Shown one piece after another: positions 3,110 through 61,790 of a stretch of 64,000 nt of DNA (within the stretch, counting starts at the first letter, position 1; each line of letters opens with the position of its first letter). The notes beneath the pieces are model-generated. The model ran no database searches. It was not told the DNA's origin and saw nothing but the letters and a program-made list of their open reading frames with translations. Location of the stretch: the NCBI RefSeq assembly GCF_003946085.1, contig NZ_RHOB01000012.1:1-64000 (forward strand), given 5' to 3'. Source of the stretch: Levilactobacillus angrenensis (GTDB lineage Bacteria > Bacillota > Bacilli > Lactobacillales > Lactobacillaceae). A program made the translations under genes and the position numbers.

Positions 3110-3687
3110 ACTTCTAGGGGGTGGCATTAACCCGTTGATTCCCGAAATAACACTGTTCTGTCGGCTAAAATTAGCGAGACCAGGGGCCTGCGTCAGCCAG
3201 AGATTCCGCCCGCTATGGGGGACACCGCCAGCCTGAGAAGCGGGCTTCCGGCTTGCTTGGAAGTCTGACAAAGCCAGTCAGTCTACAGCGCCAACACAGC
3301 TGGTGTCATCTCTGGCTGCCTCCGGCGGGTTGGTGATTGTCTGCAGCATTGCGTCAGCTAAGCGTCTGTTGCCAAATCAGTGTTATCCAGGGCTAAACCG
3401 GCTGTTACTGGCACGTATGATTATAGCCGAGAGTCCGCCAAATATGGGTTCAGCCGTGGGAGTTTTCTTAGCGGCACGGTTCATGCCGCTTAGACAACTG
3501 GCGTCTTTGAGACGTGACTTGCGGCTCAAAGCGAGGCGTCGAGACCGCACTTTGGCTGGACCCGTCCGCCCCAGCGTTCCAACCCATATTTGGCGGACGG
3601 TAGGCGGCCAGTACGACCTACGAAGCTAGACACGACTATTCTTAGCACTACGGGTTACCTGGTGATAATGGTTCTAGCCAGTTTAGA
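3110..3687 (+). repeat. Structured MITE-like element, copy A (near full length)
   Basis: This non-coding stretch has the same order of motifs as copy E (47827-48464). Module 2 comes first, starting at GCCTGCGTCAGCCAGAGA and closed by TCTCTGGCTGCC. Module 1 follows, bounded by a perfect 17-bp stem (3434-3450 with 3581-3597) and holding CAGCCGTGGGAG and the hairpin CGTCTTTGAGACG (3502-3514). The 3' flank matches copies B and E down to TAATGGTTCTAGC. I cannot find intact terminal repeats, so this copy looks worn. It ends against the stop codon of the convergent tatD gene. Short reading frames inside it have no ribosome sites and are not conserved between copies. Confidence 0.8.
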
Positions 3688-27680: not shown

Positions 27681-28328
27681 GTCGTTAACTGAAGGTTGAA
27701 ACTTGAAAATCAGCTAGAAACATTGTCACCACGCAGCTCATGACGTAAAAATTAGTTGTTTACAACTTTGTAGTTCAATCTGGCCGCCTACCGTCCGCCA
27801 ACTATGGGTTGGAACGCGGTGGGCGGACCGGTCGAGCCAAAGGGCGGTCTCGACCTCGCTTTGAGCCGAAGGTCACGTCTCAAAGACGCCAGTTGTCTAA
27901 GCGGCATAAATCGCGCCGCTAAGGCAACTCCCACGGCTGAACCCATATTTGGCGGACTCTCGGCTACAAAAGTGCTTGCCAGTAAAAGGCGACTTAGCTC
28001 CAGGCAACAGCTGATCTAGCAACTGGTTCCTAGCACAATGCTGCTGACAATCGCCAACCCGCCGGAGGCAGTCAGAGATGGAGCCAGCTGTGACGACGGT
28101 GTTGGCTGAGGCTTTTTCTCAGCCTACAGCGTGCGGCGACTTTGGAGACTGGCGGGTTTTGCCAGGCTTCAAAGCGAACCAGAAGCCCGTTTCACAGGCT
28201 GGAGGTGTCCGCCATAGCAGGCGGAATTTCTGGCTGACGCAGGCTCCTGGTTTGACTAATTTTAGTGAACAGAACACTGTCGTTCTGAAACTTACCGCGC
28301 TAATGTTACTTTCAACCTTTGTCGTTAA
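27681..28328 (-). repeat. Structured MITE-like element, copy B (full length, with target duplication)
   Basis: The element proper is 27689-28320 and lies inverted relative to copies A and E. The left end CTGAAGGTTGAAA is matched by TTTCAACCTT on the right. GTCGTTAA occurs directly outside both ends (27681-27688 and 28321-28328) as a target duplication; the match extends to TTTGTCGTTAA. Module 1 is closed by TCCGCCAACTATGGGTT with AACCCATATTTGGCGGA (one mismatch), and GGTCGAG/CTCGACC and CGTCTCAAAGACG are present. The right duplication contains the stop codon of the TSUP gene. Confidence 0.88.
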
Positions 28329-34117: not shown

Positions 34118-34696
34118 CTAAAGGTTACCTGTGAATTTCTTAGGTTGGACTTAGGAAATGTTGAGAATGCTGACGTGACAGGGATTGTTGGGAAATATAG
34201 TCGGTGCTGGCAGTCTTGTGGTTCACTAGCAGTAGATGGGGCGAGAGGACGGTCTCGTCACCTCACTTTGAGCCGAAGAACGCGTCTCAAAGATGTCAGT
34301 GACCTAACCGGCGTGAATCGTGCCACTAAGGGAATTTCCACGATAATATCTAGCGAACTAGCTACTCTGGTAGCGGTGGTCAGCAACTTTGACCTGCCGT
34401 CTCGACCAGGCGTTTAGCCACTGTATCATTTGACCACAGTTAGTAACAGCTAGCGGTGTTTGGGCTAGCGCTATGGTCATGCACAATCACGCCGGAGGCG
34501 GCCAGGGGTGGAGCCAGCTGTGTCGACGGTGTTAGCTGGCGTTATTTGCCAGGTTACAGCGTGGGGCGACTTGAGAGACTGGTGGTCTTTGCCAGGCTTT
34601 CAAGCGAACCGGAAGCCCGCTTTTCAGGCTGGAGGCGTCCCCCATAGCAGGCGGAACCCCTGGCAGCCGCAGGCAACTGGCTGCTGGGCGGGATGG
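34118..34696 (-). repeat. Structured MITE-like element, copy C (diverged)
   Basis: Same orientation as copy B. Module 2 is well kept: GCCAGGGGT (34501-34509) pairs with ACCCCTGGC (34656-34664), with GGAGCCAGCTGTGTCGACGG and GCGAACCGGAAGCCCGC between. Module 1 is worn, but CGTCTCAAAGATG (34283-34295) and GAGAGGACGGTCTCGTC remain recognisable. The left end CTAAAGGTT (34118) may be a decayed terminal repeat. The right end is cut at the stop codon of the HxlR gene. Confidence 0.75.
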
Positions 34697-40352: not shown

Positions 40353-40470
40353 CCAATCTTGCCGGAGGAGGTCAGGGGTGGAGCCAAGCGAGCCGGAAGA
40401 CCGCTTCTCAGGTTGGAGGCGTTCCCCAGAGCAGGCGGAACCCCTGACAGCCGCAGGCGCAGGTTAGCCC
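40353..40470 (-). repeat. Structured MITE-like element, copy D (module 2 only)
   Basis: GTCAGGGG (40371-40378) pairs with CCCCTGAC (40441-40448), and GGAGCCAAGCGAGCCGGAAG and CAGAGCAGGCGGAACCCC match copies B and C. Compared with copy C, about 100 bases between GGAGCCA and AGCGA(A/G)CCGG are missing, which removes one complete hairpin arm. Module 1 and terminal repeats are absent. A separate GGCCGG/CCGGCC hairpin with TTTTT (about 40296-40341) lies to its left. Confidence 0.7.
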
Positions 40471-47819: not shown

Positions 47820-48471
47820 ACATTATCTGAAGGTTGAAAGTTGAATTAATGTCTTGGCTCCCGAAGCGACAGCGTTTTGTCCACCAGAACTAGTGAAACC
47901 CGAGCCTGCGTCAGCCAGGGTTCCGCCTGCTCTGGGGAACACCTCCAGCCTGAGGAGCGGTCTTTCGGTTTGCTTTGGAGCCTTGCCAAAACCGCAAGTC
48001 TCCAAAGTCGTCCCACGCTGTAGGCTGAGAAAATACCTCAGCCAACACCGTCGACACAGCTGGCTCCACCCTGGCTGCCTCCGGCAAGTTGGCGCTTATC
48101 AGTAAGATGGTGTTAGTTAAAGACTAGTTGTTAAATCAACCGCTAACTGGGGCTAAGTCAACCATTACTAGTCCGCACACTTGTAGCCGGGAGTCCGCCA
48201 AATATGGGTTCAGCCGTGGGAGTTTACTTAGCGGTATGATTCTCACCGCTTAGCAAACTGGCGTCTTTGAGACGTGGGCCATCGGCTCAAAGCGAGGCCG
48301 AGACCGTCCCTCAGGCTCGGTCCGGTCCGCCCACCGCGTTCCAACCCATAGTTGGCGGATGGTAGGCGGCCAGCTCAAACTACGAAGCTGTAAACGAATA
48401 ATTCTTACGCCATGAGTCGCGTGGTGACAATGCTTCTAGCTGATTTTCATCTTTCAACCTTCAGACATTAT
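47820..48471 (+). repeat. Structured MITE-like element, copy E (type copy with intact ends)
   Basis: ACATTAT (47820-47826) is repeated at 48465-48471 as a target duplication. Between them, CTGAAGGTTGAAAG (47827-47840) and CTTTCAACCTTCAG (48451-48464) are perfect 14-bp terminal inverted repeats, so the element is 638 bp. Module 2 is closed by AGCCAGGG (47913-47920) with CCCTGGCT (48069-48076). Module 1 is closed by a 17-bp stem (48193-48209 with 48343-48359, one mismatch) and contains CGTCTTTGAGACG (48262-48274) and a CCGAG/CTCGG hairpin. No reading frame is conserved between copies and no transposase is present, so it must be mobilised in trans. Confidence 0.93.
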
Positions 48472-54165: not shown

Positions 54166-54315
54166 GTGTTAGGCCGAGACTGCCTCTCAGACTCGGTGCC
54201 CATAGCGTTCCAATGATAGGCTCACACTAGGATGTTGTAAATGACTAATTTTAACGTGAGAAATCAATCGCGTGGTGACAATGGTTTTAGCTGATTTTTA
54301 TCTCTCAACCGTTAG
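54166..54315 (+). repeat. Structured MITE-like element, copy F (3' part)
   Basis: GGCCGAGACTGCCTCTCAGACTCGGTGCC is the last hairpin of module 1, followed by CATAGCGTTCC and the conserved flank CGCGTGGTGACAATGGTTTTAGCTGATTTT. CTCTCAACCGTTAG (54302-54315) is a decayed right terminal repeat. The left part is missing, cut exactly at the cadD stop codon. Confidence 0.75.
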
Positions 54316-56639: not shown

Positions 56640-57839
56640 GTGACGACAAAAACGAAACGGGCCATTTTTATTTTAATCTTTAGTGAATTCTTAGTGTGTT
56701 TAGGAATTAGTTTGATCATCCCGGTCATGCCATTCTTAAAGACGCAACTGCATTTATCCGCAACCGATATGGGTGTGATGAACGCGCTGTTTGCGTTTGC
56801 CCAGTTCGTGGCCTCGCCCCTGATCGGGCGGCTGTCCGATAAGATTGGGCGGAAACCGGTATTGACCGCCGGATTACTCTTGTTCATGGTGTCCGAAGCC
56901 TTATTTGCGTTGACCAACTATCTGTGGGTCTTCGACATCTCCCGGTTGATTGGGGGCTTGTCTGCCGCCATGGTCGTGCCAACTGCCATGGCTTTGGCTT
57001 CAGATATCACGACCAAACGGCAACGGGCGAAGGTCATCGGCTGGCTGTCCGCGGCCTTCAGTGGGGGGCTCATCTTGGGCCCAGGTATCGGTGGTATTCT
57101 GGCCGGTATCAGTTACAAGACACCATTTTGGGTAGCAGCCACGCTGGGGTTAGTCAGTGCCATCGTCTTGATTAGTCTATTGCCTAACGACGTGGAAACC
57201 AATCGCGTGGTCGAAACGCCAGCCGCCGATGCCCAACCGTCTGCGCATCCCATGACGCGGGCCTTTTGGACGGTACCCATCATCATTTTATTTACCATGA
57301 TTCTGGTCTCTTCCTTTGGTCTGCAAGGATTTGAGAGTATCTACAGTATCTACGTCAACGAAGTCTTTAACTTTAGTTTAAGCAACATCGCGGTTGTCTT
57401 GACGCTGAACGGGCTGATTTCACTGTTCTTACAGGTCGCTATGTTTGATACCTTAGTTAGCAAATTTGGTGAACGCCGCGTCATCCGCTTGTGTTTCTTC
57501 CTAGCTGCGGCCTGCACGATTTGGATCACGCAAGCCCACACCAAGATTGAAGTCATGGTGGCCACGCTGGTCATCTTCTCGGCGTTCGACTTACTGCGGC
57601 CAGCGATTACCACGTTGCTGACCAAGGCCAGTGAGTCCGACCAAGGGTTGATCAACGGGCTGAACATGTCGCTGACTAGTGTCGGTAACATCGTGGGGCC
57701 AATCATGTCGGGGATGTTGCTGGACTGGAACACTCACTCACCATACTTGGTTGTGTCCGGGTTTCTGATTGTTTCTTACCTGATGGCCTTCATGCTCAAA
57801 CGTCCAGAAAGCTTACGGTCCAATCAGTCGACGGACTAA
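56640..57839 (+). CDS. MFS multidrug efflux transporter (TetA/NorA-like)
   Basis: A 399-residue permease with 12 predicted helices. SPLIGRLSDKIGRKPVL is the cytoplasmic loop 2-3 MFS motif A, and SGGLILGPGIGGILAG is the antiporter motif C of drug/H+ exchangers. The substrate is unknown; TetA-like and NorA-like pumps share these motifs. The start is GTG 56640, after AGAAGGGG. No regulator adjoins in the same direction. Repeat copy G begins at the base after its stop codon. Confidence 0.92.
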   Translation: MTTKTKRAIFILIFSEFLVCLGISLIIPVMPFLKTQLHLSATDMGVMNALFAFAQFVASPLIGRLSDKIGRKPVLTAGLLLFMVSEALFALTNYLWVFDISRLIGGLSAAMVVPTAMALASDITTKRQRAKVIGWLSAAFSGGLILGPGIGGILAGISYKTPFWVAATLGLVSAIVLISLLPNDVETNRVVETPAADAQPSAHPMTRAFWTVPIIILFTMILVSSFGLQGFESIYSIYVNEVFNFSLSNIAVVLTLNGLISLFLQVAMFDTLVSKFGERRVIRLCFFLAAACTIWITQAHTKIEVMVATLVIFSAFDLLRPAITTLLTKASESDQGLINGLNMSLTSVGNIVGPIMSGMLLDWNTHSPYLVVSGFLIVSYLMAFMLKRPESLRSNQSTD

Positions 57840-58110
57840 ATCGTTTGCTGACATGGTCGGGGCTGGCCGCCTACCGTTCGCTAGAGATGAGTTGGAACGC
57901 GGTGGGCGGACGGGGTGAGCCAAAGTACGGTCTCACCGCCTCGCTTTGAGCCGAAGGGCGTGTCTCAAAGACGCCAGTTTTCTAACCAGCAAGCTGCTAA
58001 GAAAACTCCCACGGCTGAACTCATCTCTAGCGAACTCTCGGCTACGATAAGGGGTGCCAGCAACGATTGTCGTAGCCGCGGTCGGCATTTGATGCCAGTC
58101 GTTCGTAATT
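57840..58110 (-). repeat. Structured MITE-like element, copy G (module 1)
   Basis: A perfect 17-bp stem closes the module: TTCGCTAGAGATGAGTT (57877-57893) with AACTCATCTCTAGCGAA (58018-58034). The stem sequence differs from copies A, B and E, but complementarity is complete. GGTGAG/CTCACC replaces GGTCGAG/CTCGACC of copy B, and GTTTTCT/AGAAAAC closes the next hairpin. Conserved loops CTCCCACGGCTGAAC and TGTCTCAAAGACGCC are retained. Module 2 and terminal repeats are missing. Confidence 0.82.
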
Positions 58111-58234
58111 TAACTTAAGGTAAGGTCATGATTGCTTGAGACGGTCATGGCCTTTTTCAGACTTTACGCTTGGGTGTATTGGCATGGGCTATTGGCGAAC
58201 GGTAAGGCGGCCGACTCCCACAAATCGAGAACAG

Positions 58235-61416: not shown

Positions 61417-61574
61417 GTTCGCCTGGGGCTGGATGGTGGAGATTGTCCGCCTACAGCGGCACGCGCAAGTCAATGTCTGCGGCTGCCAGGGGGATGCCTG
61501 CTATGGACGATTTTTTTCATCTAAAGTGGTTCCTGCAACTGTCTATGTATGACTAAATGAGTAAGCAAATTGGC

Positions 61575-61790
61575 TAGCCAGACATTACCGTAGCCGAGAG
61601 CGGCGCGTCAGATGCGTTCAGCCGTGGGATTCTCCTTAGCGGCGGAGTCGGTTAGGAGAATGGCGTCTTTGAGACGTGTTCTTCGGCTCAAAGCGAGTGC
61701 CGAGACCGCTTCTCAGGCTCGGTGCGTCCGCCCACAGCGAACCGACGCATCTGACGCGCCGCGGTAAGGCGAACACCAGAGACAACGTTA
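61575..61790 (+). repeat. Structured MITE-like element, copy H (module 1)
   Basis: GCGGCGCGTCAGATGCG (61600-61616) pairs perfectly over 17 bases with CGCATCTGACGCGCCGC (61746-61762); no base-level similarity to the stem of copies A or E remains except the TT after it. The loops are conserved: CAGCCGTGGGA, CGTCTTTGAGACG (61664-61676), GGCTCAAAGCGAG and CCGAGACCG...CTCGG. TCTCCT/AGGAGA replaces the inner CTTAGCGG stem. Module 2 and terminal repeats are absent. The interval 61417-61574 shows nothing else. Confidence 0.82.

Follow-up and report, generated by a model that had tools for sequence, protein, structure and literature searches.

Layout of the element and its relatives in the window

A non-coding element of 638 bp with perfect 14-bp inverted ends and a 7-bp target duplication occupies positions 47827-48464 of the analysed 64,000-nucleotide stretch of Levilactobacillus angrenensis DNA (the window; Table 1). 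A preliminary description of this DNA had claimed perfect ends, a duplicated flank and a lack of coding content, all of which hold: the ends form an exact inverted pair that is rare in shuffled sequence, ACATTAT stands on both sides, the range 47820-48471 being the element plus the two copies of the duplication, and no open reading frame (ORF) of at least 100 aa overlaps the element. The terminal inverted repeat extends to 19 bp with one mismatch. The exact 14-mer is confined to the two ends of the element in the window, plus a site with one mismatch at 27689; in 100 shuffles, the mean number of matches with up to two mismatches was 0.38, and three matches were reached by one shuffle. When folded as RNA, the whole element surpasses each of 20 shuffled sequences on both strands (z of -9.2 and of -6.3).

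The same description had pointed to relatives within the window, and seven further family members were found there. The copy at 27689 alone has two recognisable ends; each of the remaining six, a core or a fragment, lacks an intact pair of ends. The duplication around the copy at 27689 would read TCGTTAA if one base was lost at its right end. The density of modules, the structured units listed in Table 1, is about one per 6 kb of the window.

Table 1 Features of the 638-bp element and of further family members in the window. Divergence is the mean pairwise divergence among 30 source-genome copies.
Feature	Positions	Strand	Basis or remark
Left target-site duplication ACATTAT	47820..47826	.	sequence
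Left terminal inverted repeat CTGAAGGTTGAAAG	47827..47840	+	exact match, copy comparison
Outer left region, low conservation between copies	47841..47903	+	divergence 0.246
Structured module A	47904..48085	+	covariance model R1 (62 sequences, among them the element itself, L001), 186 bits; divergence 0.093
Non-coding linker between modules, low conservation	48086..48186	+	divergence 0.228 (element positions 260-363)
Structured module B, inverted diverged copy of A, facing A	48187..48367	-	R1, 62.5 bits; nhmmer
Outer right region	48368..48450	+	divergence 0.171 (element positions 535-624)
Right terminal inverted repeat CTTTCAACCTTCAG	48451..48464	-	exact reverse complement of left end
Right target-site duplication ACATTAT	48465..48471	.	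sequence
Further copy whose two ends are recognisable (1 and 2 mismatches)	27689..28322	-	CGTTAA on both sides
Modules of the copy at 27689..28322	28061-28244, 27786-27964	-, +	covariance model
Core copy without intact ends	3121..3687	+	modules 3186-3326 (+), 3426-3605 (-)
Core copy without intact ends	34246..34675	-	module 34491-34674 (-), 187.8 bits
Module fragment	40361..40466	-	
3'-half fragment	54169..54315	+	right end with 2 mismatches
Partial copy	57831..58146	-	module 57869-58042 (+)
Partial copy	61569..61786	+	module 61593-61757 (-)

Copies and target duplications in the source genome

The source genome (G000) is a 2.8-Mb assembly of 62 contigs and gave at least 41 matches to the element when 40 of 277 candidates were scored; counts of copies and of genomes are minimum values because scoring was limited to part of the first-look candidates. 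The exact 14-mer end occurs 49 times genome-wide compared to 0 occurrences of a reversed control pattern, and its left version lies, within 3 mismatches, beside 28 of 30 source-genome module pairs compared to 0 of 115 shuffled left windows. Among the 28 copies with paired ends (up to two end mismatches), 16 are flanked by an exact duplication of 7-9 bp, a count that took 28 of 99 end pairings, the other 71 having more than two mismatches, mostly as spurious internal pairings, and including L010 and L225, both with exact duplications. When flanks from different rows were combined, drawing on the flanks of all 99 pairings, 6 of 962 draws matched as well (p 6e-23). The duplication is 7 or 8 bp long in 15 of the 16 exact cases and 9 bp in one, and the duplicated targets are AT-rich (85% A+T in the 18 rows with a duplication of at least 7 bp). 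An exact duplication is absent in the other 12 of the 28 copies, some of which are off by one base (L020, L021).

Ten of the 28 copies keep the ends but measure only 277-502 bp, mostly through internal deletion, and six of these ten carry an exact duplication (L209-L213, L221). Since L208 and L213 retain the same two parts (element 2-143 plus 495-638) at different sites, the short form itself has moved. The transposition of a non-coding unit, as originally proposed, is supported by the bounded copies with target duplications and by the shorter same-ended forms with duplications, and the genome-wide search for the 14-bp ends that had been suggested as a check returned further bounded copies. 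As for the comparison with an empty site, the orthologous intergenic locus in L. brevis CD0817 (CP032931.1) lacks the element, but the intergenic DNA is too diverged to fix the junction to the base.

Genomes across the genus Levilactobacillus share the ends. A DNA query with the whole element matched 17 of 24 genomes of the genus, source included, and 0 of 16 genomes from other families of the order; in two of the 7 genus genomes without such a match (G005, G016), the covariance model still finds modules. Plasmid and phage DNA gave no match to the element at E 1e-5, in a set from which records very near the source genome were possibly left out. At one contig-end site of the source genome (L215, G000:C2:117193-118412), a perfect end of this type, from 301 on, is followed by DNA without similarity to the element or a transposase; the gene after this end looks, by eye, like a DeoR-type regulator.

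The partner transposase

It had been postulated that a partner element with the same ends, of a family that was left unnamed, must exist outside the window. Such a partner was found: the same ends flank a transposase of the IS4 family, with ISPepr1-like ends, and the source genome has a copy on contig C30. There, after the end CTAAAGGTTGAAAG, the opposite strand encodes the C-terminal part of a transposase, with an open C-terminal frame that matches PF01609 (DDE_Tnp_1) above the cut-off and NF049925 (IS4) with 148.4 bits, which for this short fragment is below the cut-off of 250. It is the sole match to the C-terminal query in the source genome, and its frame is cut off upstream by a second transposase frame, of the IS5 family (NF033580, 157.2 bits, cut-off 110). 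Since this frame truncates the sole IS4-type transposase found, the MITE family may be orphaned in the source genome, where movement would now require the arrival of an intact transposase or one that escaped detection. The IS5-type frame sits at 900-1500 of locus L220 (G000:C30:1692-4300).

An intact relative of the fragment, 51% identical over 148 aa, lies on a plasmid of Limosilactobacillus panis in an insertion sequence of 1562 bp that is bounded on either side by CTGAAACTTGAAAG and flanked by the duplication TAAGACAA, and reaches 468.7 bits against NF049925 (IS4, cut-off 250). The Y-(2)-R-(3)-E-(6)-K signature reads YARRWQIEGYFKVAK in the source-genome fragment and YARRWQIENYFKVAK in the L. 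panis relative. Relatives on plasmids of Lacticaseibacillus paracasei, 67-68% identical, adjoin an exact CTRAAGGTTGAAAG, and two further IS relatives (L229, L232) have both ends with flanks that do not match each other. In genome G003, of the same genus as the source, 14 matches over the same query range (L237, L239-L251) belong to a different, 440-aa transposase-like frame that is only weakly related to the query (29%) and could be an independent IS of high copy number there.

The ISPepr1 subgroup of IS4, as described in PMC2266710, comprises elements of 1500-1600 bp with ends YT-AA-YTT---A, the YREK signature, 7-8 bp repeats and AT-rich targets. Compared to this description (PMC2266710), CTRAAGGTTGAAAG fits seven of the eight fixed positions and the end of the L. 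panis relative all eight; consensus position 7 is C or T, whereas the Levilactobacillus end has G. The 7-8 bp duplications, the AT-rich targets, the YREK signature and the 1562-bp length of the L. panis relative, inside 1500-1600 bp, agree with the subgroup so described, and the CT ends do so apart from position 7 in the Levilactobacillus version, whereas the 638-bp element differs from it in having no transposase, two folded modules and, in one case, a 9-bp duplication (PMC2266710). Because of its ends, the duplications, the dispersed copies and the presence of the same ends around an IS4-family transposase, the element is very probably a long MITE, a transposon that is not autonomous and that an IS4-family transposase of the ISPepr1 type mobilises in trans. 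This transposase would bind the 14-19 bp ends, excise the element and insert it into a staggered cut, and repair of the gaps at this cut would yield the target duplication.

Paired modules in the interior

The interior had been described as dominated by hairpins. These hairpins proved, in iterated profile searches, to be two copies of one structured module of about 183 bp facing each other; the interior is an inverted, convergent pair of this module and not random filler. The modules differ by 8-9% among the 30 source-genome copies (module B, element positions 364-534, has a divergence of 0.082), like the ends with 8-10%, compared to 17-25% for the linker and the outer regions. Loci retrieved through matches to the element or the module gave 422 module hits, among which modules less than 300 bp apart were convergent in 115 cases, tandem in 24 and divergent in 0. 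We found neither an autonomous element carrying the modules nor, in the open-licence literature searched, a description of the module or the elements. The new part is the family of interior modules, the system of ends and transposase being of IS4 type.

Tandem multiplication of modules was seen at L164 2016-3339, L134 1505-2239 and L122 2932-3791, for example as two forward and three reverse modules, as if module arrays can grow. By eye, GCCTCCGG-like motifs form direct repeats at both module ends in L377-L393, and these could serve recombination between tandem copies. No gene is linked to the modules: the spacers between convergent modules contain an ORF of at least 200 aa in 4 of the 48 cases with a spacer of at least 240 bp. 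In two of these four, L070 and L086, a gene that by eye resembles a short-chain dehydrogenase (SDR-like) lies between convergent modules 1.1 kb apart; the two loci, from two related genomes, are probably the same locus.

Pairing in the module: DNA or RNA

The fold of the module consists of an outer stem, two three-way junctions and three hairpins. Two-sided changes occur in 34 of its 43 pairs in alignment A1, whose 62 sequences are L001 plus 61 of 114 non-redundant modules. In 99 distinct sequences from loci of other genera, 95.7% of the cells pair and two-sided changes occur in 42 of the 43 pairs, in an alignment that was fitted to the model and hence leans to it; this pairing was reached by 0 of 500 shuffles, and slid controls gave 36-45%.

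A branched fold with two three-way junctions and covariation of this extent could belong to a structured non-coding RNA, in which case the MITE would disperse RNA genes whose transcription might run outwards from the linker or come as read-through from neighbours. This reading is also suggested by fold z-scores of -5.9 and -6.4 on the two strands, by near-invariant unpaired positions and by the minus strand, which has the more stable fold in 60 of 62 modules. Folded RNA tolerates G-U pairs but not A-C pairs, and the mismatches of the module were therefore counted in each class. In the 62 sequences, G-T and A-C mismatches number 55 and 52, respectively. The counts are 77 and 77 in 99 sequences, which are the 114 non-redundant ones minus those with less than 85% Watson-Crick pairing (all 114 give 112 and 99), and 86 and 78 in the 99 sequences from loci of other genera. 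In clade consensuses, where private decay is removed, they are 16 and 10, and 14 and 12 or 13 and 12 at two other thresholds. In contrast, 36 tRNAs of the source genome, two of them not fully parsed, gave 42 G-T and 5 A-C mismatches. Fisher tests rejected a tRNA-like asymmetry for either strand in all of five comparisons, with p values from 7e-3 to 4e-9; these values are too small, the sequences being related and hence non-independent, and the tRNA finder has a bias of its own towards G-U over A-C.

A single pair, A1 columns 30 and 173, accounts for 17 of the 55 G-T cells, being T-A or T-G in many sequences, and may represent a special position instead of a true pair; without it, A-C exceeds G-T by 52 to 38. 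In helices H2 and H3, A-C mismatches also outnumber G-T mismatches (52 vs 31), which would be G-U on the minus strand and is a weak sign of RNA there. No Rfam family matched the window at gathering score, hits below it were at chance level only, and at E <=0.5 the 18 loci searched yielded two sub-gathering hits, neither of them on the module of its locus. The count of G-U against A-C, which lacks the G-U excess typical of RNA, disfavours the RNA reading, which we consider improbable. Covariation in the helices is almost confined to Watson-Crick pairs. Since G-T and A-C mismatches are equally rare in the module, unlike in the tRNAs, the fold appears to be kept as DNA rather than as RNA.

Pairing of DNA could also be kept without selection, if the modules were inert palindromic filler maintained by template-switching repair and gene conversion. 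The strand symmetry of the mismatches agrees with this explanation, and so does the excess of compensated over broken substitutions between close copies in the two largest clusters (232 vs 100 and 139 vs 44), the fourth (49 vs 33) and the sixth (12 vs 7). However, the third largest cluster shows the reverse (60 broken, 39 compensated) and the fifth is tied at 9 vs 9. Repair alone is further disfavoured because mismatches in register are themselves conserved at fixed positions (A1 columns 49/65, 85/106 and 129/159), which template correction should erase. It also speaks against filler that the modules are as conserved as the ends bound by the transposase while the linker is not, and that the model detects the fold in 10 genera. 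Inert filler is, in our judgement, unlikely. The data speak for conservation of DNA pairing, and we have less confidence in its cause, be it a function of the folded DNA or template-directed repair. Our leading, though tentative, proposal from these sequence comparisons is that the fold may work as DNA, single-stranded or as a cruciform, most likely as a structure for the module's own spread or copying.

Gene context

Using simple ORF calling, we determined the gene context of 281 element clusters, 8 of which overlap an ORF of at least 130 aa and 72 of which could not be classed by context. The 201 classed clusters lie between convergent genes in 85, tandem genes in 97 and divergent genes in 19 cases, compared to 33, 165 and 60, respectively, of the element-free gaps. 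The elements lie on the 3' sides of genes, with an odds ratio of 8 for convergent versus divergent pairs (p 3e-11). Such an excess would be expected if the elements were two-way transcription terminators or insulators, which need hairpins on both strands, and several of 30 flanks resemble, by eye, terminators with T runs. However, an insertion bias combined with selection against promoter damage would yield the same distribution, a branched fold of 180 nt with conserved mismatches is unnecessary for termination, and 97 elements lie between tandem genes, all of which makes a terminator role decidedly improbable. Among the functions considered, we rank folded DNA first, followed by inert palindromes, RNA and two-way terminators.

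The module in other genera

The covariance model, built from 62 modules, finds the module in at least 46 of 201 sampled genomes of the family, in 10 of 40 genera, and order-wide in at least 11 of 295 sampled genomes, all 11 of them in Lactobacillaceae; these family and order searches scored 13 or 8 candidates per genome with stricter filters. A scan with a pattern from the inner module gave Levilactobacillus records most frequently among the matches listed, which also included Lactiplantibacillus, Companilactobacillus, Secundilactobacillus and Lactobacillus sp.

In three genomes of other genera, 16 of 20 copies consist of a single module only, and in a fourth genus, the repeated stretches stop at the module borders. 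Non-orthologous copies that are 90-92% identical share a stretch of about 186 bp only. An element of about 243 bp with a single module is present in G177 and G129 and absent at the same locus in G099; in G177 it is flanked by TTTTT on both sides. At another locus of G177 (L398, 4554-5101), a module pair is smaller in the orthologues L408, L412 and L414, with borders that differ, and the orthologue in G154 has an 8-bp overlap at the join; these differences are partial losses or gains.

An IS4-like end within 3 mismatches was found on the 5' side of 6 and on the 3' side of 3 of the 90 other-genera modules examined for ends, out of 105 hits from which most hits below 52 bits, antisense echoes, further hits to the same place and all of L183 were left out; shuffles lead one to expect about 1 per side. 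At a distance of 19-128 bp from modules of other genera, there are IS4-like ends in Companilactobacillus huachuanensis (L101, L123; 0-2 mismatches, among them ends with 0-1), where L123 has one end on each side among its '+' modules, and one end each, with 2 mismatches, in the genomes G184 (L317) and G161 (L384).

Because IS4-like ends adjoin a few modules of other genera (L101 and L123 with 0-2 mismatches, L384 and L317 with 2), the copies that consist of modules only could be decayed MITEs. The IS4-type MITE would then be ancestral, and the single modules elsewhere would be remnants left after decay of the ends and outer regions. It is in line with this history that the outer regions diverge fastest and that a left end with up to 3 mismatches is retained by only 13 of 70 module pairs in Levilactobacillus genomes except the source genome, CD0817 and sp. 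HBUAS51381. The ends near the 90 other-genera modules are few, however, the non-orthologous copies of 90-92% identity appear too young for their flanks to have vanished beyond 186 bp, and the 243-bp element varies between relatives as a unit, so that we hold decay from a MITE to be possible but somewhat unlikely. We favour the view, as far as the sequences tell, that the modules would form an independent repeat family, which later became enclosed by ends of the IS4 type.

Discussion

Bacterial MITEs are short, non-coding and present in many copies, with terminal inverted repeats, target-site duplications and a partner IS. The element shares with them the inverted repeats, the duplications, the multiple dispersed copies and the lack of an internal transposase, but it is longer than usual, and its conserved part is mostly a module found elsewhere without the ends of the partner.

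REP sequences and REPINs consist of a folded intergenic unit that occurs alone, in inverted pairs and in tandem. The module likewise occurs singly, in inverted pairs and in tandem, which is compatible with REPIN-like mobilisation of the modules by a Y1 transposase (RAYT/IS200-type). It differs in its length of about 183 nt and its two three-way junctions, and many modules are present in the source genome although this genome has 0 matches to PF01797, while genomes without an element match (G004, G013, G014) have one. A Y1 transposase as the agent is very improbable on these grounds. For the source genome, the absence of PF01797 largely excludes a present RAYT/Y1 partner, though a past enzyme may have been lost since.

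GOLLD, ROOL, OLE and HEARO are large structured bacterial RNAs, and GOLLD was named after Lactobacillales. The module resembles them in its large covarying fold and differs in having no Rfam match at gathering score and no preference for G-U.

As a tentative and still doubtful account of the whole, the module may be a selfish or host-serving DNA element of Lactobacillaceae that works via folded DNA, single-stranded or as a cruciform, with Watson-Crick-only covariation, and that spreads alone, in tandem and as inverted pairs, having gained a second route of movement between IS4-type ends. The module spans ten genera of lactobacilli in our sample, and no earlier description of it was found in the open-licence literature searched. 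Since the pattern of mismatches separates folding of DNA from folding of RNA, counts of this kind could also serve as a check on predicted RNA families. With a folded repeat and IS ends combined in one transposon, it can be tested directly which of the two moves the other, and the module is a natural test case for structure that is conserved at the level of DNA.
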